A stretch of 64,000 bases of DNA from Comamonadaceae bacterium OH2545_COT-014. Its GTDB lineage: Bacteria; Pseudomonadota; Gammaproteobacteria; Burkholderiales; Burkholderiaceae_C. The notes under the pieces are model-generated. The model saw nothing but the letters and a program-made list of their open reading frames with translations. It was not told the DNA's origin and did no database searches. The stretch's first letter is position 1, and each line of letters opens with the position of its first letter. Shown piece by piece: positions 1-10,983 of the stretch. A program made the position numbers and the translations under genes. Location: the NCBI GenBank assembly GCA_003859965.1, contig RQYR01000009.1, positions 1-64,000 of the forward strand, written 5' to 3'.

Positions 1-87
1 GCGCAGGTCGTGCGCGACCAATTGCAGCAGCTGGGCATCAGCGAGCAAGACGTGGCAGACGCCATCGCCTGGGCGCGGCGCGGATGA
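1..87 (+). CDS. Antitoxin of a PIN toxin pair (C-terminal end only)
   Basis: The reading frame is open from the window edge to a TGA at 85-87 and encodes a 28-residue tail ending in AIAWARRG. The next gene starts inside this stop codon (ATGA), so the two are translationally coupled. Position directly before a PIN-domain toxin is the usual place for the cognate antitoxin, which would bind DNA and neutralise the toxin. The DNA-binding N-terminus lies outside the window, so the antitoxin family cannot be named. The role is inferred from context only. Confidence 0.6.
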   Translation, partial: AQVVRDQLQQLGISEQDVADAIAWARRG

Positions 88-521
88 CAAGCGCCGCGCC
101 CCGCGTCGTGCTCGATACCCATGTCGCGCTTTCCGCCCTGTTGTTCAGCAACGGGCGGCTGGCTTGGCTACGCCACGCCTGGCAACGCGGGCAGTTGCGC
201 CCCCTGGTCTGCAAGCCCACGGCCAGCGAGTTGCTGCGCGTGCTGGCCTATCCCAAATTCAAGTTGACCGCGCAGCAGCAACAGGATTTGCTGGCCGACT
301 TTCTGCCCTATGCGCAAGTGGTTCAGCTTCCCGAAGCTTGGCCCGAACTGCCCGCCTGCCGGGATGAAAAAGACCAGGTATTTCTGGCGCTGGCGCATGT
401 GGGCCAGGCGCAGGCGCTGATTACTGGCGATGCCGATTTGCTGGCCTTGCGCGAGGATTTTCCCGCTGGTTGGATCGTCACGCCGCAGGCGTGGGCGATG
501 CAGCACGGCATGGTGGGCTGA
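84..521 (+). CDS. PIN-domain toxin of a toxin-antitoxin system
   Basis: This is a 145-residue protein of the PIN family (COG1569 type), predicted to be a metal-dependent RNase acting on cellular RNA when not held by its antitoxin. The acidic active-site residues are visible: the first in VVLDTH near residue 11, a glutamate in SELLRVL near 49, an aspartate in RDEKDQVFLALA near 96, and ITGDADLL near 118. The family usually has DTN where this protein has DTH. The ATG overlaps the upstream antitoxin stop by four bases. Length is normal for the family. The RNA target cannot be read from sequence. Confidence 0.8.
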   Translation: MTSAAPRVVLDTHVALSALLFSNGRLAWLRHAWQRGQLRPLVCKPTASELLRVLAYPKFKLTAQQQQDLLADFLPYAQVVQLPEAWPELPACRDEKDQVFLALAHVGQAQALITGDADLLALREDFPAGWIVTPQAWAMQHGMVG

Positions 522-548: not shown

Positions 549-965
549 TTGAAAGGCACGGACAAGCCCATGCGGCAGAGTGAACTAAATCCAGCAGATG
601 TCGCGATATTGGTATCGCTGGAACAGGCCATGTGGCGAGCAGAAACCCGGTTTGATCCGGTATTCATGGCGCGGCACTTGGCTGCCGACTTCATCGAACT
701 GGGTCGCTCCGGGCGTAGCTATACCCGGGAACAGTGTCTGGCCGCAGCACCACAGCCAATCGCTTGCCGCTTGCCATTGCCCAATCTGCATGTGCGTCTT
801 TTGGATGCCGATACCGCACAGTTGCTGTATGACAGCATCGTGACGCGAGAAACGGGAGCGCTGGAGTACACGCACCGCTCGTCCCTATGGACACGCACGG
901 CCCATGGCTGGGTCATGCGCTTTCATCAGGGCACTCCGTTCGTACCTGATGCATCCGGGGCATGA
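549..965 (+). CDS. NTF2-like (DUF4440/SnoaL type) protein
   Basis: This is a small soluble protein of 138 residues with the pattern of the NTF2-like fold: an N-terminal helix with a conserved tryptophan (LEQAMWRAE), a DFIELGRSGRSYTRE stretch near residue 50, and a C-terminal strand pair ending in WVMRFHQGTP. The start chosen is TTG at 549, because AAGGAGG at 536-542 sits six bases before it; an ATG at 570 is the alternative. DUF4440 proteins vary widely in function, so no reaction can be assigned. It follows the toxin gene at 27 bases and may be co-transcribed. Confidence 0.65.
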   Translation: MKGTDKPMRQSELNPADVAILVSLEQAMWRAETRFDPVFMARHLAADFIELGRSGRSYTREQCLAAAPQPIACRLPLPNLHVRLLDADTAQLLYDSIVTRETGALEYTHRSSLWTRTAHGWVMRFHQGTPFVPDASGA

Positions 966-997
966 CTCGGGGGGCGGCGATCAATCTTGCGGCAGCC

Positions 998-1033
998 AGC
1001 GCAGCTTGAAGCGCAGCGAAAACCCGGCATGGC
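998..1033. repeat. 36-bp repeat, left copy
   Basis: This 36-bp stretch matches 10703-10738 in the same orientation with three differences by eye. The two copies lie near the two ends of the repeat-rich accessory region, 9.7 kb apart. The right copy ends exactly where a truncated transporter fragment begins. It could be a common intergenic repeat of the species or a recombination scar. Confidence 0.6.
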
Positions 1034-1200
1034 CCAGCTGGATGATTTCAATAATTGTTGGGTTACGGCCTGCGCCAATCCGCAGCATCCGATTGTCACA
1101 CCCCGAGGGCAGACCGCCGCAGGTGTTTTTTGAGCGACGCCTTTTGGCAAATGCCCCCTGAATCAAGCAGGCCGAACGCTGATTTTCCAATCAAAGCGGT

Positions 1201-1212
1201 TTCAGGCAGCCT
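1201..1212 (-). other. DNA uptake sequence, Simonsiella-type dialect (AGGCTGCCTGAA)
   Basis: The minus strand reads AGGCTGCCTGAA, an exact match to the AG-sim dialect of the Neisseriaceae 12-mer DNA uptake sequence. Uptake sequences mark DNA for transformation in Neisseriaceae and are not native to Comamonadaceae. It lies just beyond the 3' end of the DUF2938 gene. Confidence 0.7.
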
Positions 1213-1252
1213 TGGCTCTTTCAGTCGCGCTGGCTTGGGAGGTCAACGGTTT

Positions 1253-1747
1253 TCATGCCCAAACCTGCTTCAGCAGCGCTGCCGCAGCATAAAGGCCGCA
1301 GCCGAACGCTGCATGCGCCGCCAGCGTGAGCAGGCGGCTTTTGAATGGCGCCGGTGTGCGTGAGGCGGCTATGCCCGCCCCCATGGCGGGCTGCATCACC
1401 AGCCATGGAAAAACCACCGTGGCCATGCCCGTTGCCAGTGCGGGCGGCCATGTCGGGGCATACAGCCATTCAGCGCCGTTGATGACCACCAGCAAAAAGG
1501 CAAATGCGATGCCTGTGGCGTAGTGGATCGCCCATCCCAAGGGTCTCTCCCCGGCAATCGGCTCAGCCCTGGCAATACTGGGGTGTACAAATTTTCCCCG
1601 GCGCGCATGGCCTGCCCACCGTCCCACCCAGGCATAGTCCAGCGTCGCAATGCCGCACATCCGCAGCATGACCGACCACAAATCCATCACCACCGTCGCG
1701 CCAGCGCCCACCAGCACTGTCCTCACGATGTCGTCCATCACGATCAT
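1253..1747 (-). CDS. DUF2938 family membrane protein
   Basis: This 164-residue protein is predicted to lie in the inner membrane with about four hydrophobic segments (near residues 8-30, 72-92, 100-120 and 135-160). Recognisable family stretches are VGRWAGH, GWAIHYATGIAFAF and QPAMGAGIAASRTP. No biochemical role is established for DUF2938. The ATG at 1747 is preceded by AGAGG. It is divergent from a MerR-type regulator across 79 bases that contain a perfect dyad, so the regulator probably controls it, perhaps in response to a reactive compound or metal. Confidence 0.75.
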   Translation of the reverse strand: MIVMDDIVRTVLVGAGATVVMDLWSVMLRMCGIATLDYAWVGRWAGHARRGKFVHPSIARAEPIAGERPLGWAIHYATGIAFAFLLVVINGAEWLYAPTWPPALATGMATVVFPWLVMQPAMGAGIAASRTPAPFKSRLLTLAAHAAFGCGLYAAAALLKQVWA

Positions 1748-1796
1748 GTTCGCCTCTTTTGCTTGATGAGATTATTGTTAGAGGGCATGATAGAAG

Positions 1797-1812
1797 TTGA
1801 AGTAAACTTCAA
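1797..1812. promoter_or_regulatory. MerR-type operator between divergent genes
   Basis: TTGAAG-TAAA-CTTCAA is a perfect 6-4-6 inverted repeat, 14 bases before the MerR gene start and about 50 before the DUF2938 start. It resembles the dyads bound by SoxR- and NmlR-like MerR proteins. It probably serves both the regulator and its divergent partner. Confidence 0.6.
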
Positions 1813-1826
1813 GTCAAGAGGGTGTC

Positions 1827-2240
1827 ATGGACATTTCAGAAGTCACCCGGCGCACGGGCGTTCCGGCCTCGGCGTTGCGGTTTTATGAAAAAAAGGGGCT
1901 GATTTCCTCCGTCAGCCCTGCGGGCAAGCGCCGGCGCTTTGCCCCTGAGGTGCTGGATCAGCTGGCCTTGATTGCGCTTGGGCAGGAGGGTGGTCTGTCA
2001 TTGGACGAGATTCGCGCCATGCTTTCTGCCCAGGGTGCGCCGCAAGTGGACAGAAAGCTGCTGCTGGCCAAAGCGGACGAAATCGATGCAACCATCAAAC
2101 GCCTGAAAGCCATGAGCGAATGTTTGCGGCACACAGCCGTGTGCCCAGCGCCCAGCCACGCCCAGTGCCCCACATTCCAGCGTTTGCTGAAAACGGCAGC
2201 GGCGGTGCGGCGCAAAAAAAGCCAGCGGGCATCATCCTAA
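1827..2240 (+). CDS. MerR family transcriptional regulator
   Basis: This is a 137-residue regulator. The N-terminal winged helix-turn-helix is clear (ISEVTRRTGVPASALRFYEKKGL, reading as two segments over residues 3-25), followed by a dimerisation helix to about residue 100. The C-terminal tail holds three cysteines, in ECLRHTAVC and HAQCPTF, spaced CX6CX7C, which could bind a metal or sense thiol-reactive compounds. AGAGGG precedes the ATG. The adjacent divergent DUF2938 gene and the perfect dyad in front point to autoregulation plus control of that gene. The effector is unknown. Confidence 0.8.
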   Translation: MDISEVTRRTGVPASALRFYEKKGLISSVSPAGKRRRFAPEVLDQLALIALGQEGGLSLDEIRAMLSAQGAPQVDRKLLLAKADEIDATIKRLKAMSECLRHTAVCPAPSHAQCPTFQRLLKTAAAVRRKKSQRASS

Positions 2241-2386
2241 TAAATCCGGCAAATCGCTATCCGCCCAAACATTAGCCATCTGTGTGCGATGCTGTTTGAC
2301 CAGCCCCGGCTGTGCGGGCAGGCTGAATAGATTTGCCCAAACGCTTCTGCCAGATTATCGAAATTCAGGGCCCGGCAAGCGCCCTT

Positions 2387-2398
2387 TTCAGGTAGCCT
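2387..2398 (-). other. DNA uptake sequence, Eikenella-type dialect (AGGCTACCTGAA)
   Basis: The minus strand reads AGGCTACCTGAA, the AG-eik dialect of the Neisseriaceae uptake sequence. It lies 23 bases before the left copy of the 72-bp repeat. The right copy of that repeat is also preceded by an exact AG-eik 12-mer at 5194-5205. Confidence 0.75.
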
Positions 2399-2421
2399 TG
2401 CCCGTATTCCCTGCTGCTTTT

Positions 2422-2520
2422 AATGAAAAAATTTCCCACTTATAAGCGCTTATAACGATAATTTTTACCACTATAAGCGCTTTATCTTGAGAATATTTAC
2501 CGCATTAAGCGCCTTTCCCG
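2422..2520 (+). repeat. Left boundary repeat of the copper cassette: three phased palindromes
   Basis: Positions 2422-2493 match 5229-5300 in 68 of 72 bases, in the same orientation. Inside is a tandem array of AT-rich units centred on AAGCGC at 2444, 2475 and 2507, a period of 31-32 bases, or about three helical turns. The first unit is the palindrome TTATAAGCGCTTATAA. The array lies beyond the 3' end of the CueR-like gene. The rest of the 2241-2529 gap shows no gene. Confidence 0.8.
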
Positions 2521-2529
2521 ATAAAACCA

Positions 2530-2952
2530 TCATCCCCCATCAGCACCCGCCTCCCCTGCCATGCCATGGCATTGCAGCGCTTTCAGAATGGGGCATTCGG
2601 TGTGCTCGTCGCCGGCACAGGCGTCATGCCACTGACGCAAGGTGTCCCGCATGGTTTCCAGGCTGGCGATGCGCGCGTCCAGTTCCTGAATGTGGGTGGC
2701 CGTCAGCCGCTTGACGGCGCTGCTGCACCGCGCCGGATCATCGTGCAGCGCAAGCAAGGCGGCAATCTGCTCCAGCGAAAAGCCCACTTCCCGCGCATGA
2801 CGGATAAAGCGCAGCCGCACCACATCTGCCTCCGCGTAATCGCGATAGCCCGACGGCGAACGCGCCACCGCTGCCAGCAACCCGGCTTTTTCATAATCGC
2901 GCACCTGCTTGGCCGACAAGCCGGATGCCTGTGCCGCTTCGCCTATCTTCAT
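2530..2952 (-). CDS. CueR-like copper-sensing MerR regulator
   Basis: This 140-residue protein has a MerR N-terminal DNA-binding domain (MKIGEAAQASGLSAKQVRDY) and a C-terminal metal loop, CAGDEHTECP, with cysteines spaced CX7C as in CueR. A serine where CueR has Ser77 (CSSAVKRL) fits a sensor of monovalent ions, Cu(I) or Ag(I). I chose the ATG at 2952; the frame continues upstream to 3015, but that would run into its own promoter region. It is divergent from the DUF411 and oxidase genes. A 19-bp-spaced promoter in the gap is its expected target. Confidence 0.85.
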   Translation of the reverse strand: MKIGEAAQASGLSAKQVRDYEKAGLLAAVARSPSGYRDYAEADVVRLRFIRHAREVGFSLEQIAALLALHDDPARCSSAVKRLTATHIQELDARIASLETMRDTLRQWHDACAGDEHTECPILKALQCHGMAGEAGADGG

Positions 2953-2959
2953 GTCACGC

Positions 2960-2990
2960 TTGACCTTAACCTTGGGTGAAGCTTTATTAT
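2960..2990 (+). promoter_or_regulatory. MerR-type promoter for the copper genes (19-bp spacer)
   Basis: TTGACC at 2960-2965 and TATTAT at 2985-2990 are separated by 19 bases, the lengthened spacer typical of promoters activated by MerR-family proteins. An imperfect dyad, ACCTTAACC with GGTGAAGCT, fills the spacer and resembles CueR operators. It reads toward the DUF411 gene. Confidence 0.75.
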
Positions 2991-3060
2991 CGCCAACGGC
3001 TTCCTGCGGACACAAGCCATCCGCGCCCTGTTTTGTTTTTTTGTGAGCAAGGAAATCCTC

Positions 3061-3549
3061 ATGACAACTGCTTTACGTACCCGCGCCGTCCGCCTGCTGC
3101 TACCGGCCGCCTTGGTCGCTGCCGGTCTGGCGGCGCTGATTCCGACCGTTTCCGCACAAGCGGCGGACGTGGAAGTGTGGAAAGATCCGAACTGCGGCTG
3201 TTGCAGCGACTGGATCAAACACATGGAAGCCAACGGCTTCAAAGTCACCGTTCATCAAACCGGCAACCGCGAAGCGCGCAGCCGTCTGGGCATGCCCGAT
3301 CGCCACGCCTCCTGCCATACGGCCAAAATCGGCCGCTACGTCATCGAAGGCCATGTGCCGGCAGCCGATATTCGGCGGCTGTTGCAGCAACAACCTGACG
3401 CAGTCGGCCTAGCCGTGCCCGGCATGCCCTTGGGTTCTCCCGGCATGGACGGCCCCGCCTACGGCAATCGCCGCATGGCGTATCAAGTGCTGCTGGTGCA
3501 AGCCAACGGCGGCGATCAGGTTTTTCAGTCCTACCCGGCCCAACCCTGA
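3061..3549 (+). CDS. DUF411 periplasmic metal-binding protein
   Basis: This 162-residue protein has an N-terminal signal peptide cleaved after about residue 34 (TVSAQA). The DUF411 hallmarks follow: WKDPNCGCCSDW with a CGCC thiol motif, SCHTAKIGRYVIEGHVPA, and VPGMPLGSPGM. The family is commonly found with copper-resistance genes and probably binds Cu(I) in the periplasm. I chose the ATG at 3061 over the GTG at 3043 because AAGGAAA precedes it. The oxidase gene follows after 13 bases, so the two likely form one transcript under the CueR-like regulator. Confidence 0.8.
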   Translation: MTTALRTRAVRLLLPAALVAAGLAALIPTVSAQAADVEVWKDPNCGCCSDWIKHMEANGFKVTVHQTGNREARSRLGMPDRHASCHTAKIGRYVIEGHVPAADIRRLLQQQPDAVGLAVPGMPLGSPGMDGPAYGNRRMAYQVLLVQANGGDQVFQSYPAQP

Positions 3550-3562
3550 AAGAGAGCGTCAT

Positions 3563-5173
3563 ATGCAACCCATCAACAGACGTCGGATGCTGCAATACGG
3601 CATCGGGCTGGCATTGGGCGGGCTGGCCGCCTGCTCGCGCAACAGTGAAGCGCAGCAGATGCCGGGCGGCGCACACCAGGGACATGACATGCACAACGCC
3701 ATGCACGGCACGCCGGCCAGCGCCGGATCGGCGCCGGCAGGCACAATGGCATTGATGCCGTCCGAAGCCATGCCCGCCGGCGCCGCCCTGTCTGCCCTGC
3801 CGCTGCTGGCCAACCGTTCTGCCCGAAGCGCTCATTTTCAGGCCGAGCTGACCGCGCAAGTGACGCACACCGTGCTGGCAGGCGGCAAAACAACCGAAAT
3901 CTGGGCCTACAACGGCCAATTGCCCGGCCCGCAAATCGTGGTGCAGGAAGGCGACACGGTGGAAATCCGTTTTCGCAACGCATTGCCGCAGGCAACCACC
4001 CTCCACTGGCACGGGCTGGATGTCCCGGCGCAGGCGGACGGCAACCCGCAAGACCCGGTGCCGCCGGGCGGCCAGCGCGTCTACCGCTTCACCCTGCCGG
4101 AAGGCAGCGCGGGCACCTACTGGTATCACCCCCATCCGCACGAGCATGTATCGGAGCAGGTATACCGGGGATTGGCCGGCACACTGATTGTCCGGGCCAA
4201 AGATGATCCCTTGGCCGGCAGGCCGGAGCAGCATTGGCTGATTTCCGATCTGCGGCTGGCGGCAGACGGCAGCATTCCGCCCAACACCCCGACCGACTGG
4301 ATGAACGGACGCGAAGGCGAATTTGTGCTCATCAACGGCCAATACCGCCCCGACATCCGTGTGCAGGGAAACGAGCGCATCCGCATCTGGAACGCCACCA
4401 GCGCCCGTTACCTGCGTTTGCAGATACCCGGCATCTCATGGATCGTGGTGGGCAGCGACGGCGGATTGCTGGAACAACCGTTGCCTGCGGTCAGCGAACT
4501 GTTTCTGGCGCCCGCCGAACGGGTGGAAGTGATTTTGCAGGGCACGGCGCCAACCCGGGCGGCGCTGCACAGCCTGTATTACGATCGCCAGAAAATGATG
4601 GTACAGGAAACACCGTCCACGCTCACCCTGGCCCACGTCCGTTTTGCCGGGGAGCAGGCCGACATCCCGCCCAAACTGCGCACCCTGCCGCCATGGGGAG
4701 ACATCCAAGCGCAACAGACCGTGGCATTCAGCGAAGTGATGAACATAATGAACCACGGCGGCATGAACCACGGCAGCATGAACCACGGCACGGCAACGGG
4801 CACGGTAGGCGCCGACACCCCGCCGCCGATGATGACCGGCATGTTTCTGGTCAACGGCAAAACCTTCGATATGAAGCGCATTGATCTGCACACCCGGGCG
4901 GGGCAAAGCGAAGAATGGATGCTGCAAAACCTCTCCCATATGGATCACCCCTTCCATCTGCACGGCACCCAGTTTGAAATCATCCGCCGCGAATGGCAGG
5001 GCAAGCGCGAGAACGCCGCGTATCGCGCCCTGAAAGACACCGTCAACCTGCGCCCCAACGAAACGGTATGGATCCGCACCCGGCAAAACCATCCCGGCCT
5101 GAAAATGTTCCACTGCCACATTCTCGAACATGAGAACCTCGGCATGATGGGCATGCTGGAAGTGAAAGCATAA
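3563..5173 (+). CDS. Multicopper oxidase (cuproxidase type), Tat lipoprotein
   Basis: This 536-residue oxidase likely converts toxic Cu(I) to Cu(II) with reduction of O2 to water, outside the cytoplasm. The N-terminus has NRRRML followed by a hydrophobic stretch ending in the lipobox LAAC (Cys24), so Tat export and lipid anchoring are both possible. The four copper-ligand motifs are present: HWHG near 147, YWYHPHPHEH near 187, HPFHLHG near 461 and HCHILEHENLGM near 516. A Met/His-rich insert near 394-410 (MNHGGMNHGSMNHG) resembles the copper-binding inserts of CueO and CopA oxidases. No copper ATPase gene accompanies it. Confidence 0.9.
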   Translation: MQPINRRRMLQYGIGLALGGLAACSRNSEAQQMPGGAHQGHDMHNAMHGTPASAGSAPAGTMALMPSEAMPAGAALSALPLLANRSARSAHFQAELTAQVTHTVLAGGKTTEIWAYNGQLPGPQIVVQEGDTVEIRFRNALPQATTLHWHGLDVPAQADGNPQDPVPPGGQRVYRFTLPEGSAGTYWYHPHPHEHVSEQVYRGLAGTLIVRAKDDPLAGRPEQHWLISDLRLAADGSIPPNTPTDWMNGREGEFVLINGQYRPDIRVQGNERIRIWNATSARYLRLQIPGISWIVVGSDGGLLEQPLPAVSELFLAPAERVEVILQGTAPTRAALHSLYYDRQKMMVQETPSTLTLAHVRFAGEQADIPPKLRTLPPWGDIQAQQTVAFSEVMNIMNHGGMNHGSMNHGTATGTVGADTPPPMMTGMFLVNGKTFDMKRIDLHTRAGQSEEWMLQNLSHMDHPFHLHGTQFEIIRREWQGKRENAAYRALKDTVNLRPNETVWIRTRQNHPGLKMFHCHILEHENLGMMGMLEVKA

Positions 5174-5193
5174 CCGGGTTTGCCAAGGTGGCT

Positions 5194-5229
5194 TTCAGGT
5201 AGCCTTGGCGTACTCACAGGCCACCTGAA
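5194..5229 (+). terminator. Terminator-like hairpin made of two uptake sequences
   Basis: An exact AG-eik uptake sequence on the minus strand (5194-5205) faces a one-mismatch copy on the plus strand (AGGCCACCTGAA, 5218-5229) across 12 bases. The pair folds into a 12-bp stem with one mismatch, 20 bases after the oxidase stop. Inverted uptake sequences as terminators after genes are a known neisserial arrangement. Confidence 0.7.
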
Positions 5230-5300
5230 ATGAAAAAATTTACCACCGATAAGCGCTTATAACGATAATTTTTACCGCTATAAGCGCTTTATCTTGAGAA
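5229..5300 (+). repeat. Right boundary repeat of the copper cassette: two phased palindromes
   Basis: This is the right copy of the 72-bp direct repeat at 2422-2493, differing at four positions. AAGCGC centres lie at 5251 and 5282, again 31 bases apart. A matching AG-eik uptake sequence precedes it. Together the two copies enclose the CueR-like, DUF411 and oxidase genes. Confidence 0.8.
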
Positions 5301-5439
5301 AAATCCATCATTTTATTTGTCTGTACATGGTTCGTCTTTCCGGCAACCGGCCTGCAGTGCGCGGTTATTCGGCAAACGCCGTTTTCAGCAATGCCGCGAC
5401 TGCGCTGATTTTGGCCGATTGTGCGCGGTGGGGAGTACC

Positions 5440-5507
5440 GTAGGTCGGGCATTCATGCCCGACAAAGGTAGCGAACAAATTCCGTCGGGCATGAATGCCC
5501 GACCTAC
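5440..5507. repeat. Perfect 24-bp inverted repeat pair around a 20-bp spacer
   Basis: Positions 5440-5463 and 5484-5507 are exact reverse complements, and each arm contains the near-palindrome GTCGGGCAT...ATGCCCGAC. The 'GTAGGTCGGGC' type is a recurring intergenic repeat in Neisseriaceae and some gammaproteobacteria as far as I recall. The right arm recurs at 6106-6129 with one change. The surrounding 5301-5673 stretch otherwise shows only a short coding remnant. Confidence 0.75.
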
Positions 5508-5510
5508 TGG

Positions 5511-5621
5511 CTATGGGCCATTGAAGGCGCCCTGACTGACCGCGACTGGCGCGAGATTGCACGAGATGAAGCATTGCTCTTACGATTGGCCTTGGAAGAT
5601 GCTAAGAAACCCGTACCGTAG
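5511..5621 (+). pseudogene. Remnant reading frame ending in a charged helix
   Basis: A frame running from the repeat at 5511 to TAG at 5619-5621 encodes a tail beginning WAIEGALTDRDWREIARDEA and ending in LALEDAKKPVP. It has coding character (a charged amphipathic helix) but no start codon or ribosome site, and its upstream part is interrupted by the repeat pair. I do not recognise the family. It is probably the 3' end of a gene cut by repeat insertion or cassette exchange. Confidence 0.35.
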
Positions 5622-5673
5622 GTTGGTCATGCCCGCCCCGCGGACTGTCAAATAGAAAAACTGGAGACGAAAA

Positions 5674-6063
5674 ATGACCAAGCTCGATCCCATTATTGCC
5701 GTCAACAATGTTGCGGCCAGTGCCGACTGGTATTGCGACCTGTTTGGTTTCCACAACGTGCACGGCGGCGATCATTTTGCGGTGTTGAATTCGCCGGAGA
5801 ACGAAACCGTATTGTGCTTGCACGCTTGGGGCACCGATGAACATCCAACCATGGTCGATCAGGATATCCCGACGGGAAACGGATTGCTTCTGTATTTCAG
5901 AACGAATGACTGGCAAACCATCCGGAACCGCCTTGATCGCATCGGCTGGACTATTGAAGAAGATGTGCATCAAAATCCCAATTCGCGCAAACAGGAATTT
6001 TCTTTCCGGGATCCCGACGGCTATTTCATTACCGTAACAGAAAGCCATCACTACGAAGGCTAG
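5674..6063 (+). CDS. VOC superfamily (glyoxalase/bleomycin-resistance fold) protein
   Basis: This 129-residue protein has the pattern of a one-domain VOC protein: an opening strand IIAVNNVAASADWYCDLFGF, a central HAWG segment, and the closing FSFRDPDGYFITVTE motif with its C-terminal glutamate, often a metal ligand. VOC proteins include glyoxalases, dioxygenases and drug-binding proteins, so the substrate is not predictable. GGAGA precedes the ATG. The gene is visibly AT-richer than the later chromosome and stands alone between two direct copies of a 31-bp repeat (5484-5514 and 6106-6136), consistent with acquisition as a cassette. Confidence 0.8.
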   Translation: MTKLDPIIAVNNVAASADWYCDLFGFHNVHGGDHFAVLNSPENETVLCLHAWGTDEHPTMVDQDIPTGNGLLLYFRTNDWQTIRNRLDRIGWTIEEDVHQNPNSRKQEFSFRDPDGYFITVTESHHYEG

Positions 6064-6105
6064 TTTCGTATGTCGACATTCATGCCCGATTTACTGGCTA
6101 CCTTT

Positions 6106-6136
6106 GTCGGGCATAAATGCCCGACCTACTGGCTAT
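6106..6136 (+). repeat. 31-bp direct repeat, copy of 5484-5514
   Basis: It matches 5484-5514 in 30 of 31 bases in the same orientation, and so brackets the VOC gene together with that copy. A degenerate inverted partner lies just upstream at about 6079-6094. Confidence 0.75.
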
Positions 6137-6199
6137 AAAGCGTTGCCTATGCCATTTTCAGGGGGCATTGCATGCCAGCGGCTGCTGCCGGGCGTCATC

Positions 6200-6877
6200 T
6201 CACGCGCCAGCCGCTCCTGTCAGACGGGCCACCAGCGCATCCACCGCCGCTTCGGCATTGGCCAATGACTGCGCCAGCCGTTCGTCGGCGTATTCGTCGT
6301 ATTCGACGGCGATGCTGTGGTGTTCGGTAATGCCCAGGTAGGCCAGCGCAGTGAACAGGCTGGCTTCAACGTGGTTTTTGCCCTGCATCTTGCCGCCGTC
6401 GTAGCCGTAATCGCCGCGCGAGGTGAGCACCACGGCGCGCTTGCCCAACCCGGCCAAGAGCGGCCAGTACGGATCGCCTGCGCGGCTGCGATCAAAGCCG
6501 AAGGTACGCCCCACGCGCACGATGTTGTCCACCCAGGCCTTGCATTGGGCGGGCGGGCCAAAGTTGTACATGGGCACGCCGGCCACGATGACATCGGCTG
6601 CCAGCAGCTCGTCAATCAAGGCGTCGCTTTCGCGCAAAGCCTCGTGCATCCAGTCCTCGCGCTGCGCTTCGGGAGTGAAGGCGGCGTGTATCCATTGGCC
6701 GCTCACAGGCGCGGGCGGATGCTGGCCGACGTCGCGGTAAATCACGCGCGCGTCGGGCTGGTGTTGCCGCCATTGCGCGATGAAGCGGGCCGACAGGCGG
6801 CGGGTGTGCGAGCCGTAGGCATCCTGACCGGAAAGGCCGGGGCGGGCGCTGGCGTCCAAATGTAGCAAAGTGGTCAT
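6200..6877 (-). CDS. azoR: FMN-dependent NADH azoreductase (AzoR-like flavodoxin-fold)
   Basis: This 225-residue flavodoxin-fold quinone/azo reductase uses FMN and NAD(P)H for two-electron reduction of quinones or azo compounds in the cytosol. Family features are the opening LLHLDASARPG, the FMN-contacting PMYNFGPPAQCKAWVDNI near residues 103-120, and TSRGDYGYDGG near 154. I chose ATG 6877 because AAGGAAA lies just before it; the frame extends to 6922. It is divergent from a LysR regulator across 115 bases, a common arrangement in which the regulator activates the reductase. Confidence 0.85.
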   Translation of the reverse strand: MTTLLHLDASARPGLSGQDAYGSHTRRLSARFIAQWRQHQPDARVIYRDVGQHPPAPVSGQWIHAAFTPEAQREDWMHEALRESDALIDELLAADVIVAGVPMYNFGPPAQCKAWVDNIVRVGRTFGFDRSRAGDPYWPLLAGLGKRAVVLTSRGDYGYDGGKMQGKNHVEASLFTALAYLGITEHHSIAVEYDEYADERLAQSLANAEAAVDALVARLTGAAGA

Positions 6878-6929
6878 GGGTTTTCCTTTTGACGGATGAA
6901 TCAAATGAATTTGAAAACCCATTTTGGAC

Positions 6930-6959
6930 TTGAACTATATTGATGACAAACGGTATATT
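6930..6959 (+). promoter_or_regulatory. Predicted promoter of the LysR gene
   Basis: TTGAAC at 6930-6935 and TATATT at 6954-6959 are 18 bases apart in an AT-rich gap between divergent azoR and lysR genes. The assignment rests on consensus match only. Confidence 0.45.
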
Positions 6960-6992
6960 TTCAGCTTATGAATAACTTTGTCTCATCTATCT

Positions 6993-7868
6993 ATGCCCCG
7001 TTTATTGCCTTCGCTCGATGCCTTGGCCGTGTTTGAAGCAGCGGCGCGCCTGGGCAGTTTCAAGGCTGCGGCGGCGGAGCTTTCCGTCAGCGCCACGGCG
7101 GTCAGCCACCGCATCCGCGCGCTGGAGGAAGCGCTGGGCTGCGCGCTGTTTGTGCGGCAGGTGCGCGCCGTGGCCTTGACGGCGGAGGGCCGGCTGCTGT
7201 GGGCGGCGGTCAGCGATGGGCTGGACGGCATCGCCGCCGCCGTGGCTCGTGTTCGCAGCCCCGGGCGGGCGCGGGTGACGCTATCGGTCACGCCCGATTT
7301 CGCCGGGCAATGGCTGGTGCCCAAGCTGGCGGCATTTCAGGCAGCCTGCCCGGCGGTGGACTTGCACGTACACGCCAGTTACCAGCCGGTGGATTTGAAC
7401 GCGGGCGCCGCCGATTTGGCCGTGCGTTATGGTCAAGGCCCGTGGTCCGGCGTACAGGCCCAGGCGCTGTTTCAAGAATGCTTCGCCCCCGTGGCCGCGC
7501 CCTGGCTCAAGCAACGCCTGCCGGCCGATGCCACGCAATGGCCGCTGATTCACCTGAACTGGCGCTGGCCTGCGCAACAAGCGCTGGACTGGGCCGCCTG
7601 GGCGCGCGCCGCCAATCTGCCGCCGCAGGCCATGCAAACCGGCGCGCGCTATTCCGACGGCACCCACGCCCTGCAAGCCGCCCTGGCCGGGCAAGGCGTC
7701 GCCTTGCTGGGCTTGCCGCTGCTGCGCGAGGAACTGCGCCTGAACCTGCTGGAAGTGGTGCGCGAGCCGTACCTGCCGGGGCAGCTTTATCACGTCTGCA
7801 CCCCCGCCAAACGCCCGCCCAGCACCGCCACGCTGGCGGTGAAAAACTGGCTGCTGGCGTGGAGATGA
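6993..7868 (+). CDS. LysR family regulator (GcvA-like)
   Basis: This 291-residue LysR-type regulator has its helix-turn-helix at residues 13-60 (FEAAARLGSFKAAAAELSVS), then an effector domain of the GcvA type with HLNWRW near 188 and a TGARYSDGTHALQAALAGQG stretch near 218. ATG 6993 fits the family start; TTG 6978 is possible. It is divergent from azoR. Its last 81 codons are duplicated at 10411-10693, with 71 identical residues. A Simonsiella-type uptake sequence lies inside the coding region. The effector is unknown. Confidence 0.85.
   Translation: MPRLLPSLDALAVFEAAARLGSFKAAAAELSVSATAVSHRIRALEEALGCALFVRQVRAVALTAEGRLLWAAVSDGLDGIAAAVARVRSPGRARVTLSVTPDFAGQWLVPKLAAFQAACPAVDLHVHASYQPVDLNAGAADLAVRYGQGPWSGVQAQALFQECFAPVAAPWLKQRLPADATQWPLIHLNWRWPAQQALDWAAWARAANLPPQAMQTGARYSDGTHALQAALAGQGVALLGLPLLREELRLNLLEVVREPYLPGQLYHVCTPAKRPPSTATLAVKNWLLAWR
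7336..7347 (-). other. DNA uptake sequence, Simonsiella-type dialect, inside a LysR gene
   Basis: The minus strand reads AGGCTGCCTGAA exactly. It lies within codons for AAFQAACP of the LysR gene. As an in-gene copy in GC-rich DNA it could be chance, but it is the second AG-sim copy in the accessory region. Confidence 0.5.
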
Positions 7869-7889
7869 TTGTGCAGGCCGACCACGCCT

Positions 7890-8774
7890 CTACACCCGCA
7901 AGGTATCCACCAACGCGCGCAGGGCAGCCGAAGTGCGGCGGCTGGGGTAATACAGAAAAAAGCCGGGGTAGGGCGTGCACCAATCTGCCAGTACGCGTAT
8001 CAGTTGCCCGCTTTCAAAATATTGGCTGCACTGCGTGACTTCGGAATAGGCCAGTCCCACGCCATCCAGTGCCGCCTGTTGCATCAATTCGAAATCATCC
8101 AGCATCAGCGGGCCGTTCACCGCCACATTAATTTTCTGCCCATCTTTGGCGAACTCCCAGCGATAGGGTTTGCCAGCGCTGCTCTGCCGCCAGCCGATGC
8201 AGCGGTGCGCCGTTAAATCGTGGGGCGTTTGGGGTATGCCGAAGCGCTGGAAATATTCGGGCGAGCCGACCACGGCGTCGCAAAAATCCGCCGTAATGCG
8301 TACGGCCACCATGTCTTTCTGTATGTGCTCACCCAGGCGCACACCGGCATCAAAACCTTCCTTGACGATATCGACAAAACCGTTGTTGGCGGAAATCTCC
8401 AAGGTCACATCGGGGTAGCGTTCGGCAAATTCACGAAAACGCGGCGCCAACACATGCGCCGCCGCCATGCGCGGCACGGAAAGCCTGACCGTACCTGCCG
8501 GATGTTGACGAAACGGATTGATGTGCTCCACCGCCATCGCAATATCGGCAAAGGCTGGAGCAACTTGTGCGTACAGTGCCTGCCCCGCTTCCGTGGGCGA
8601 CACATGGCGGGTGGTACGGTGCAAAAGTGATACCCCCAGCCGGTTCTCCAAGGTGCGCATGGCATGCGACAAGGTGGAAGGCTGCATCTCCAAACGCGCT
8701 GCCGCTTTGCGGAAACTGCCGGTCTCCACAATGGCAATGAAGGCGGCAAGATTGAAGTAGTCGGTGCTTTTCAT
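7890..8774 (-). CDS. LysR family transcriptional regulator
   Basis: This 294-residue LysR-type regulator has a classic N-terminal helix-turn-helix (FIAIVETGSFRKAAARLEMQ, residues 10-29) and a CrgA/AaeR-type effector domain with RLSVPRMAAAHVLAP near 100 and EGFDAGVRLGE near 145. ATG 8774 aligns with the family start; the longer frame to 8843 adds an unsupported leader. It is divergent from a short-chain dehydrogenase gene, and a perfect palindrome sits in the 273-base gap. It probably controls that gene. The effector is unknown. Confidence 0.85.
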   Translation of the reverse strand: MKSTDYFNLAAFIAIVETGSFRKAAARLEMQPSTLSHAMRTLENRLGVSLLHRTTRHVSPTEAGQALYAQVAPAFADIAMAVEHINPFRQHPAGTVRLSVPRMAAAHVLAPRFREFAERYPDVTLEISANNGFVDIVKEGFDAGVRLGEHIQKDMVAVRITADFCDAVVGSPEYFQRFGIPQTPHDLTAHRCIGWRQSSAGKPYRWEFAKDGQKINVAVNGPLMLDDFELMQQAALDGVGLAYSEVTQCSQYFESGQLIRVLADWCTPYPGFFLYYPSRRTSAALRALVDTLRV

Positions 8775-8996
8775 GCGTTTCCCAAAAGATTGATGGCTTA
8801 ATTTCATCAAGCCATACAAGAAAACATGGCTTATCAGCAGCAATCATCGCATTTATCATGCCTTTTGTCATGAATCAATGGCGTTTTTGGTGAGGCGTAC
8901 AACAAACACGTTTGCTGAAAACCTGATGTTGGCCCTGTCTGAAAAATACTGTGCATCTGCCAGCAGCAATAGACGCCTGGATACTACCCGCTTCAA

Positions 8997-9016
8997 ATAG
9001 CGACAATCGCTATGAT
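8997..9016 (+). promoter_or_regulatory. LysR operator palindrome overlapping a -10 box
   Basis: ATAGCGA-CAA-TCGCTAT (8997-9013) is a perfect 7-3-7 palindrome. It overlaps TATGAT at 9011-9016, a match to the -10 consensus with 31 bases left to the start codon. No good -35 is visible, which fits an activator-dependent or repressible promoter. Confidence 0.55.
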
Positions 9017-9047
9017 TGCTCATCATTCAACAAATCGGAGATAAGGC

Positions 9048-10052
9048 ATGCACGCTTTTGTTACTGGCGCTACAGGTTTATTGGGAAATAACTTGGTACG
9101 CGCCTTACTGGAAAGAAATATTCACGTAACGGCCCTGGTGCGCAGCGCAGAAAAAGCCAAGAAACAATTTCCCGATATGCCATTAAATTGGGTAGAGGGG
9201 GATTTGTGTAAGCCTGAAAGCTATCGCGCGAATTTGGTCGGATGCGACTGCCTTTTTCATACGGCCGCCTATTTTCGGGACAGTCTTAAAGGAGGCAAAC
9301 ACTGGCAAGGGTTGTACGACACTAATGTAAAAGGCACCGAAGATTTGCTTCAGACCGCCTATGACGCAGGTATTCGGCGCATGGTGCACACTTCCTCCAT
9401 TGCGGTATTGCACGGGGACAGGAATCAGTTGATTGATGAAACCATGTCACGCCCTGCGAATGATCCCGATGATTATTACCGCAGCAAAATCATGAGTGAA
9501 GAAGCAGTCAATCGGTTTCTTGCCAAGCATCCTGATATGTTCGCCTGCTTTGTTTTGCCCGGGTGGATGTTTGGCCCCGGCGATAGGGGGCCGACTGCGG
9601 CGGGTCAATTTGTGATGGACTATATGCAGAAAAAGCTGCCTGGCGTATTGCCGGCCAGTTTTAGTGTGGTGGATGCGCGCGATGTGGCCGAGCATCTGAT
9701 TCTGGCCATGGAGAAAGGCCGCAGGGGTGAGCGCTATCTGGCTGCCGGCCGACATGTGACCATGAGTGATTTAATGGAAGAACTGGAGCAGGTAAGCCAT
9801 GTCCCTGCCCCAACTAGGCCGATTCCTCTTTTTATGCTGCGCCTGATTGCACAAACTCAAGAAATCTACCATTGGCTGAGCAAAAAACCGATATTGCTGA
9901 GCAATTCCAGCGTTGATCTCATGGCCAATGAATATCTGCGTACCCGTTTCAGCCATGAAAAAAGCGAGCGTGAACTGGGCGGTACGTTTCGGCCATTCAA
10001 GGAAACATTAAGCGATGTGCTGAGGTGGTACCGCCAGCATGGTTTTTTATAA
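9048..10052 (+). CDS. NAD-dependent epimerase/dehydratase-like SDR (extended type)
   Basis: This 334-residue extended short-chain dehydrogenase/reductase has the nucleotide-binding motif TGATGLLG at residues 7-14, HTSSIAVL near 122 carrying the catalytic serine region, and YYRSK near 143-147 with the catalytic tyrosine and lysine. The family includes dihydroflavonol reductase-like and sugar-nucleotide enzymes; the substrate is unknown. GGAG precedes the ATG. The gene is clearly AT-richer than the housekeeping part of the window, with codon use to match, so recent transfer is likely. The divergent LysR gene is its likely regulator. Confidence 0.85.
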   Translation: MHAFVTGATGLLGNNLVRALLERNIHVTALVRSAEKAKKQFPDMPLNWVEGDLCKPESYRANLVGCDCLFHTAAYFRDSLKGGKHWQGLYDTNVKGTEDLLQTAYDAGIRRMVHTSSIAVLHGDRNQLIDETMSRPANDPDDYYRSKIMSEEAVNRFLAKHPDMFACFVLPGWMFGPGDRGPTAAGQFVMDYMQKKLPGVLPASFSVVDARDVAEHLILAMEKGRRGERYLAAGRHVTMSDLMEELEQVSHVPAPTRPIPLFMLRLIAQTQEIYHWLSKKPILLSNSSVDLMANEYLRTRFSHEKSERELGGTFRPFKETLSDVLRWYRQHGFL

Positions 10053-10070
10053 AAGCACAGCGCGCTTCAT

Positions 10071-10405
10071 TCAGTTTTCTTCCCCCTGCGCCAGCGCCTG
10101 CACCAAAAAATCCGCCACCGCCCGCACGCTGGGCGAGCGGCGCACGTCTTCGTGCATGACCAGGTGCAGGGGGCTTTCGTGCACTTCGGGTGTGGGCGCG
10201 TGCAGGGCCACGGGCACCAGGCCATCGTCCGCGTTCACGCAGTCAGCGGGCAGCAGGCCAATGCCCAGGCCCAGGGCAATGCTTTGCTGGATCAGCTCAA
10301 AGTCATTGCAGGCCAGGGCCACGGGCATGTCGCCCAGGGCAGCGGCCGCCCAGCGGCTCAAGGCGTTTGGCGTGGACAGGGTCAGCGCCTGCCATTGCGC
10401 GTGCA
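10071..10405 (-). pseudogene. LysR regulator, C-terminal effector-domain fragment
   Basis: The minus strand encodes the C-terminal ~110 residues of a LysR regulator (NDFELIQQSIALGLGIGLLP, then ...SVRAVADFLVQAL) with a normal stop. No DNA-binding domain exists upstream: at about 10405 the homology stops abruptly and runs into a second LysR fragment on the opposite strand. It is therefore a truncated, probably unexpressed remnant. Confidence 0.7.
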
Positions 10406-10410
10406 GCAAA

Positions 10411-10693
10411 GCTGCCGCCGCAATCCATGCAGACCGGCGCGCGCTATTCCGACGGCACCCATGCCCTGCAAGCGGCATTGGCCGGGCAAGGCGTCGCCCT
10501 GCTGGGGCTGCCGCTGCTGCGCGAAGAACTGCGCCTGAACCTGCTGGAGGTGGTGTGCGAACCGCACCTGCCGGGGCAGTTTTACCACGTCTGCACCCCC
10601 GCCAAACGCCCCCTCGCCCCCGCCACGCAAGCGGTGAAAGAGTGGCTGCTGGGCTGGAGCGGGGATGTCAATCCAGACCTGAAAAATGCATGA
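10411..10693 (+). pseudogene. GcvA-like LysR regulator, duplicated C-terminal fragment
   Basis: From 10411 the plus strand repeats the 3' end of the LysR gene at 6993-7868: 71 of 81 residues match (PPQSMQTGARYSDGTHALQ and onward) and about 88% of bases by my count. The stop lies at 10691-10693, some 15 codons beyond the parental end. No N-terminal part is present. It is joined head-on to another LysR fragment, so one deletion or inversion probably removed both 5' ends. Confidence 0.75.
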
Positions 10694-10738: not shown

Positions 10739-10843
10739 AGGCCCGCGCTGCTGGGCTTCGGGCTGGTGCTGTGCGCCATCTACGGCGTGCAACGCGCCTT
10801 GCAGGACAACGCTTCCCAAAATGCGTCCAAGGAGTCCCCATGA
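10739..10843 (+). pseudogene. Membrane transporter, C-terminal fragment (DMT/EamA-like)
   Basis: The frame encodes RPALLGFGLVLCAIYGVQRA, a hydrophobic segment, and a short polar tail before TGA at 10841-10843. The pattern resembles the last membrane helix of a drug/metabolite transporter, but the stretch is too short for certainty. It begins right after the 36-bp repeat, with no start codon. Its stop overlaps the next start (ATGA), showing that the two remnants were once an operon. Confidence 0.45.
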
Positions 10844-10983
10844 ATCTGATTGAACTGCTGCGCCGGCGCAGCTCCGCCCATGCTTTTGCCGAAAGCGCCA
10901 TCAGCGATGCCGAACTGCGGCATCTGGTCAGCTACGGCGGCGGATTTGACCCCCCCTGGGCTGCCTTTCGCCGGCCCACATGA
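10840..10983 (+). pseudogene. Nitroreductase family protein, N-terminal fragment
   Basis: ATG at 10840, preceded by AAGGAG, opens a frame MNLIELLRRRSSAHAFAESA, which matches the N-terminus of FMN-dependent nitroreductases (the RRSS...F FMN-phosphate motif). Similarity ends after about 33 residues, and the frame closes at 10983 after unrelated sequence. The remaining ~150 residues are missing. waaA follows at 11017, so this is the right edge of the scrambled region. Confidence 0.6.

Follow-up and report, generated by a model that had tools for sequence, protein, structure and literature searches.

Neisserial DNA uptake sequences as probable passengers on short imported segments in a Comamonadaceae genome

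Introduction

DNA uptake sequences (DUS) are thought to favour exchange among the bacteria that use them, and DUS-marked exchange between families is already a known kind of event. In 1998, Kroll et al. reportedly described uptake-sequence-marked transfer between the genera Haemophilus and Neisseria. To our knowledge, no uptake-sequence dialect has been recognized in the lineage considered here, that of Comamonadaceae bacterium OH2545_COT-014 (assembly GCA_003859965.1). We analysed the first 64,000 nucleotides of its contig RQYR01000009.1, referred to as the window, in which 12-mers of two Neisseriaceae DUS dialects lie near one end. As in the Haemophilus-Neisseria case, chromosomal genes that crossed into a different family are marked by the uptake sequences of the family they left; unlike in that case, the recipient belongs to a third lineage, several small segments are involved and neisserial repeat families accompany them. 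We consider it highly probable that these 12-mers, with the possible exception of the one at position 7336, are genuine Neisseriaceae DUS carried as passengers on several short chromosomal segments, which form a patchwork among native genes.

The study by Frye et al. (2013; PMC3630211) places eikDUS in Eikenella corrodens and Neisseria shayeganii, reports two DUS types in a single Simonsiella muelleri genome and inverted DUS pairs at terminators, and quotes 943 to nearly 6000 DUS per Neisseriaceae genome. It also describes "peregrine" DUS, foreign-dialect copies that are traces of exchange between species sharing a niche; the copies described here resemble them, but lie outside the Neisseriaceae rather than among DUS users. 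In DUS dialect plots used to detect integrative and conjugative elements (PMC7371117), a local change in DUS content likewise reveals imports; there, however, the imports are element-borne and within the Neisseriaceae, whereas the open reading frames (ORFs) scanned here contained no element genes. In the open-access literature searched, no description was found of a recipient outside both uptake-sequence families.

Results

Clustered uptake-sequence 12-mers

We take AGGCTGCCTGAA and AGGCTACCTGAA to be the sim and eik dialects of the Neisseriaceae DUS. A preliminary description of the window had listed exact 12-mers of the eik or sim type at four positions and one further copy with a single mismatch, and all five were recovered at the same coordinates:

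1201..1212, minus strand: uptake 12-mer AGGCTGCCTGAA, sim type, single, without hairpin signal
2387..2398, minus strand: eik-type uptake 12-mer AGGCTACCTGAA, within copy 1 of a 108-bp direct repeat
5194..5205, minus strand: uptake 12-mer AGGCTACCTGAA, eik type, 21 bp past the oxidase stop codon
5218..5229, plus strand: one-mismatch inverted partner AGGCCACCTGAA, in a predicted hairpin, possible terminator
7336..7347, minus strand: AGGCTGCCTGAA, sim type, within a LysR gene, absent from the G015 orthologue, chance or import

After position 7347, as the same description had it, no further exact copy of either 12-mer occurs up to the end of the 64 kb. G+C per kb is 0.50 to 0.69 between 1 and 11 kb versus 0.697 between 11 and 64 kb.

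The host genome has 3,107,355 bases in 86 contigs, the window belonging to the 109-kb contig C79. Nine exact copies (3 eik and 6 sim) are present in it, at C79:1201, 2387, 5194 and 7336, at C21:25663, 34545, 36972 and 36998, and at C44:2273. All four C21 copies lie within the final 12 kb of that contig, and C44 is itself 5 kb long. Counted for these two 12-mers, the density is thus far from the genome-wide uniformity that had been named as evidence against transfer, the copies being clustered in three contig stretches. As an internal control, the 64 12-mers of pattern AGGYNNYCTGAA gave 30 genome matches, of which 21 fell to the 62 others (0.34 each) and nine to eik and sim together; the Poisson probability of at least nine at a mean of 0.68 is 5e-8, composition differences between 12-mers being ignored. 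Given nine copies in the genome, the probability of at least four in the 7,347 bases at the start of C79 is 4e-9. For nine of nine in 24 kb it is 1e-19, a post hoc value for a region drawn around the matches. When up to two mismatches were allowed, the eik 12-mer was enriched in the window (8 matches; shuffle mean 2.06; 0 of 100 shuffles reached 8), and the sim 12-mer was not (11 matches; shuffle mean 8.30; 22 of 100 shuffles reached 11), so that it is the exact copies that carry the signal.

Across the order, 399 genomes were counted including the host and 11 Neisseriaceae (family f45). At least one copy of these 12-mers occurs in 195 of them; outside the Neisseriaceae, the highest count after that of the host is 6 (read by eye). 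The highest count among the Neisseriaceae in this set is 812, in G203. With nine copies, the host genome falls short of the hundreds to thousands found in a DUS-using genome, and its 12-mers look like borrowed DUS rather than a DUS system of its own.

A segment bordered by neisserial repeats

Donor searches covered 83 Neisseriaceae genomes, with positions 950 to 6200 as the window query and the best 3 candidates per genome scored; genome searches with long queries generally scored the best 3 to 5 candidates per genome, and missing weak matches prove little. Within the family, genus g61 holds Neisseria dentiae, and g167 and g168 are other genera. Some match to window 950-6200 was obtained in 45 of the 83 genomes, in many of them to a doublet of repetitive extragenic palindromes (REPs) alone. 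The best match, to g61 genome G450 (C1:688628-689326), is 92% identical over 703 bp and provides a Neisseriaceae match to the surrounding genes, the lack of which had been named as evidence against transfer. It comprises the following features:

5436..6132, plus strand: segment 92% identical to Neisseriaceae genome G450 (DNA match)
5440..5507, no strand: REP doublet, two GTAG-tagged palindromes, inverted, present in many Neisseriaceae genomes
5674..6063, plus strand: glyoxalase/VOC-fold protein, 96% amino acid identity to G450
6068..6129, no strand: degenerate REP doublet that closes the imported segment

Segment 5436-6132 starts and stops at neisserial REP doublets. The arms of the first (5440-5463 and 5484-5507) are 24 nucleotides each and 100% complementary, giving the two inverted GTAG-tagged palindromes that define a REPIN. 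In the host genome, with 5 of 273 candidates scored, positions 6068-6129 were the only further match listed for it. The arrangement is that of the REP/REPIN repeats covered in PMC3733652, with the doublets here bordering an imported VOC segment; unlike those repeats, the doublet seems foreign to the genome that carries it.

Probable imports on contigs C21 and C44

On C21, an uptake sequence was found within donor-type DNA. The C21 stretch L086 (2700-15240) had some match in 47 of the 83 Neisseriaceae genomes, and L086 2958-3775, which takes in alkD and the inverted sim pair that follows this gene, is 89% identical to G437 (g168). The pair occupies the same place in G437, where both arms are exact, one arm being exact in the host; for alkD and its DUS pair, donor-family DNA therefore surrounds the uptake sequence and is closer than descent predicts. 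The match stops where a 130-bp duplicate (96%) of an aldo-keto reductase gene (L086 7166-7295) starts. At its left end, an in-frame fusion joins alkD to the opening codons of a DUF6958 gene (L086 2892-3647), an intact copy of which lies on C44; the import thus produced a chimeric open frame.

Farther along C21, a segment with a LysR gene and a YdcZ transporter gene (L086 10051-11512) is 97% identical to g61 genome G446. Its G+C is 0.65 in both genomes, with flanks of 0.52 to 0.56 in G446, in which an eik 12-mer ends two bases ahead of the segment. Among the matches listed for 60 genomes around the host (its own included, 5 candidates each) there were short ones alone, and the other Neisseriaceae gave weak or short matches alone (best 3 candidates each). 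A truncated integrase core of an insertion sequence (IS) adjoins the segment; the IS is of host type (77% to G003; 138 bp at 91% on the host's own C14). Arsenic genes (ArsR, ArsC and an SBF-family transporter) lie between the 12-mers at L086 12546 and 14973, with a best identity of 74% (to G442).

C44, represented by stretch L087, had some match in 34 of the 83 genomes. Its glutathione S-transferase (GST) gene is 83 to 85% identical to six g61 genomes, best to G463, and its DUS begins 45 nucleotides before the GST start codon, outside the matched stretch. The C44 copy and the copy at 7336 lie outside all donor matches found, the window query having been 950-6200.

The multicopper oxidase cassette

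Three of the four window copies (1201, 2387 and 5194) adjoin neisserial repeats. The first is about 130 bp from a repeat match, and the other two begin the copies of a 108-bp direct repeat (2386-2493 and 5193-5300, 86% identical) that flank genes for a MerR regulator, a DUF411 protein and a multicopper oxidase:

1006..1074, plus strand: 69-bp stretch, 81 to 83% identical to a repeat that Neisseriaceae genome G437 has on three contigs
1253..1747, minus strand: DUF2938 protein, 56% amino acid identity to same-family genome G031
1827..2240, plus strand: MerR-family regulator, 72% amino acid identity to G031 (host family)
2422..2493, plus strand: 72-bp AT-rich repeat (ATAAGCGCTT motifs), copy 1
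2530..3015, minus strand: MerR-family regulator, 57 to 59% amino acid identity to several Neisseriaceae copies
3043..3549, plus strand: DUF411 protein, 61% amino acid identity to Neisseriaceae G434/G435 (g167), 56 to 66% to host relatives; ambiguous origin
3563..5173, plus strand: multicopper oxidase, 61% amino acid identity to Neisseria dentiae
5229..5300, plus strand: 72-bp repeat, copy 2, 94% to copy 1

Relatives of the 72-bp element occur in Neisseriaceae genomes G450, G446 and G476 (73 to 77%); the one in G450 is separated by about 60 bp from an eik 12-mer that has an imperfect inverted partner. In a tree of 82 oxidase rows, built from the best 80 loci by similarity, the host oxidase groups with N. 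dentiae and Pasteurellaceae in a clade of 15 rows (support 100/99), apart from three Comamonadaceae (Rhodoferax) rows; it sits on a long end branch (0.41), and its own donor is outside the sample. A search of a plasmid collection for near matches to window 2380-5320 found none. In the oxidase tree, the rows of N. dentiae and Mannheimia (L006 6001-7608 and L007 9516-7909) are near-identical, with branches of 0 and 0.005, which points to recent exchange between the two families.

Native genes and the link between contigs

The imported segments are framed by genes that have counterparts in the genus, and duplicated stretches lie among them:

1..48, no strand: 48 nucleotides common to the C21 end and the C44 start, where the assembly branches within a duplicated PIN gene locus (self BLAST)
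84..521, plus strand: PIN-domain protein (PIN_3)
6200..6922, minus strand: azoreductase-type Flavodoxin_2/FMN-reductase protein, native to the genus, at most 92% DNA identity per 100 bp to G015
6978..7868, plus strand: LysR-family regulator with an orthologue in same-genus G015
7602..7864, plus strand: LysR 3' part, duplicated at 10397-10659 (88%)
10741..10928, plus strand: 188 bp shared at 98% identity with C21:30773-30960, where an EamA transporter gene ends and a nitroreductase gene begins

The last 48 nucleotides of C21 are identical to the first 48 of C79 and of C44 (self BLAST; exact check with C21). In G015, of the same genus, an old yellow enzyme (OYE)-type gene (Oxidored_FMN), 407 bp, the azoreductase gene and the LysR gene follow in a row. 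The host has a 3' remnant of the OYE gene (94% over 174 bp) at L086 12254-12425 on C21 and the azoreductase-LysR pair at window 6221-7857; their order and orientation agree with those in G015. The C21-C79 join is supported by this gene order, which is short of proof. A join of C21 to C79 would put some 9.2 kb, which hold six of the nine 12-mers, at the place where G015, the one relative compared, has 0.4 kb. The neighbourhood of the 7336 copy matches another species of the same genus (80%), and the 12-mer is missing from the G015 orthologue; this copy may be a chance match or an unrecognised import.

Several duplications were seen along the region. The PIN-protein locus is duplicated (window 1-521 and L087 1-521 on C44, 95% identity), and its start breaks the assembly. 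The 263-bp LysR duplicates (7602-7864 and 10397-10659) flank an insert of lower G+C with a second LysR gene (7890-8843; 0.57) and an NAD-epimerase gene (9048-10052; 0.50), and window 7602-10659 reads as an insertion with partial duplication of the LysR gene beside it. A nitroreductase gene recurs across the island in full or partial copies, at L086 8859-9487, 11565-12197 and 15002-15198 and at window 10826-10927.

Predicted hairpins

Five stretches were folded and compared with shuffles. The strongest signal (z -3.28) came from L086 14965-15015, which holds the exact inverted pair at L086 14973/14999. Stretch 5185-5240 folds at -19 kcal/mol (z -2.57), the 12-mer at 5218 pairing mainly with 5186-5194 and not with the 12-mer at 5194. 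The imperfect alkD pair gave z -1.36, with 24 of 200 shuffles folding as well, and there was no hairpin signal in 2380-2430 (z -0.64) or 1195-1245 (z +0.41); inverted pairs are absent at 1201, 2387 and 7336. In light of these predictions, two or three of the DUS hairpins could plausibly act as terminators.

Other genomes of the genus

Among the 29 genomes of the genus, including the host, G005 has 7 copies, G010 and G013 have 4 each, and the other 25 have 0 to 2. Six of the seven copies in G005, a single-contig record, lie in patches of 0.49 to 0.54 G+C, several with further dialects. In these patches (L153 to L158), AG, muc, king3, eik and sim 12-mers were seen, and two patches lie at the record's two ends. 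Stretch L153, which holds three 12-mers that differ in dialect, matches 67 of the 83 Neisseriaceae genomes somewhere, best G461 (g61; 82% over 1.7 kb) and G436 (84% over 0.85 kb). The six G005 stretches showed no similarity to the host island at E 1e-6, and by this comparison G005 appears to hold a separate, unrelated set of imports. G010 and G013 have their eight copies in DNA of 0.59 to 0.72 G+C, without other dialects nearby, and these copies mostly look like chance, two in G013 (L164 and L165, at G+C 0.63 and 0.59) being less clear than the rest. These two genomes, for which no donor search was made, were set aside as further recipients.

Donors and dialects

The preliminary description had proposed transfer from oral Neisseriaceae such as Eikenella or Simonsiella. 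The family is borne out by the 92% match over 703 bp and the neisserial repeats, but the two genera are not; G203, the genome richest in these 12-mers, has no match to window 950-6200. More than one donor probably took part, since the genomes that match best, G450 (g61) and G437 (g168), are of different genera, but the argument from two dialects to two donors was rejected. In 28 kb of G437 (L169 and L172), 21 eik and 5 sim copies stand side by side, with none of the other six dialects, and one lineage can therefore supply both. On the matches at hand, several donor lineages, or one mosaic donor, are likely. Mixed DUS 12-mers should accordingly be read with caution, as they do not reveal donor number.

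Discussion

The data presented here point to genuine Neisseriaceae DUS that entered a Comamonadaceae genome as passengers on several short pieces of chromosomal DNA, now interspersed with native LysR and azoreductase genes and the OYE remnant. The pieces are short and lie among native genes, their borders are repeats or partial duplications of neighbouring genes (nitroreductase at L086 8859-9487 and 11565-12197; window 7602-7864 and 10397-10659), and no conjugation or phage proteins were found in the 28 ORFs scanned, all of which fits a host that takes up free DNA and integrates it by homology-assisted or illegitimate recombination. It is likely that neighbouring Neisseriaceae release DNA, that the host takes it up by natural transformation without any need for DUS, and that integration proceeds partly via illegitimate or short-homology recombination. 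The DUS would then be passengers, although some of their hairpins may still end transcription. A ComEC domain is present in the host genome (190.6 bits).

A different route would be a single mobile element, such as a plasmid, integrative and conjugative element or phage, that once resided in a Neisseriaceae cell and brought all genes together. The pieces are adjacent, direct duplications flank inserts and an IS integrase-core fragment sits beside the 97% G446 segment, as such an element might leave them. However, that IS is of host type, the pieces alternate with native genes, their best matches come from more than one genus, and the oxidase cassette had no near match in the plasmid collection. 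Moreover, in a Pfam scan of 28 host ORFs, a subset of the total, no relaxase, phage or conjugation protein was found and the truncated integrase core was the only trace of an element. We therefore regard this route as unlikely, while it retains some weight. That the 12-mers are mere chance matches in a region of lower G+C is very improbable. The lack of sim enrichment at two mismatches, the frequency of single copies across the order and the eight copies of G010 and G013 would suit it, and the 7336 copy may be one such match, but all nine genome copies fall in three linkable stretches, inverted pairs are present, and for the alkD copy chance is refuted by the same DUS hairpin at the same place in donor DNA.

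Contamination with Neisseriaceae contigs during assembly or binning might be suspected from the small size of C44 and from C21 ending within the region. It has very little to commend it in view of C79, in which native and neisserial DNA alternate within one 109-kb contig, of an estimated contamination of 0.09%, and of single-contig G005, which shows the same phenomenon. Least credible of all is a native use of the 12-mers by the genus, for uptake or as terminators: inverted pairs exist, and of the five stretches folded, 5185-5240 and L086 14965-15015 exceed their shuffles in stability, but nine copies in 3.1 Mb compare with the 943 to nearly 6000 that Frye et al. (PMC3630211) give for Neisseriaceae, and 25 of the 29 genus genomes have 0 to 2.

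Several observations weigh against import of DUS as passengers on neisserial segments. Long donor DNA for the 1201, 2387 and 5194 copies was not found when 950-6200 was compared with the 83 Neisseriaceae genomes. The oxidase cassette reaches at most 70% DNA identity in these genomes at three scored candidates each, and its DUF411 gene is equally close to host relatives. Beside the 1201 copy, the DUF2938/MerR pair (1253-2240) is closest to host-family genome G031 among the loci compared and, on this evidence, would have no neisserial affinity. The 7336 copy sits in a native-type gene. On C44, the GST match to G463 ends short of the DUS, G463 has no DUS directly upstream of its own copy, and the contig begins with the same 48 nucleotides as C79 and could also follow C21. 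The LysR-YdcZ segment could have moved in the opposite direction or come from a third party. Two of the five folds, at 1201 and 2387, gave no hairpin signal, and the alkD pair gave z -1.36. Finally, ComEC is the sole evidence of competence and is widespread, being present in 10 of 14 control genomes.

Beyond the window, we suggest only tentatively, and with more doubt than confidence, that the genus is a regular and independent recipient of Neisseriaceae DNA, with unrelated insertions in at least two species, that neisserial repeats (REP doublets, and DUS with 72-bp units) serve as portable cassette borders, and that exchange may run both ways. The last point is raised because a segment of 65% G+C, 97% identical to the island, sits between flanks of 52 to 56% G+C in a Neisseria chromosome. 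If this broader picture is true, DUS scars would be a readable record of donors in a host that does not use DUS.

In summary, DUS outside the Neisseriaceae can be regarded as neutral marks that name the donor family. The cargo found here, namely the multicopper oxidase cassette and the arsenic, GST, VOC and alkD genes, suggests what gets retained, and counting DUS scars in bacteria outside the Neisseriaceae would measure transformation across families in common habitats.

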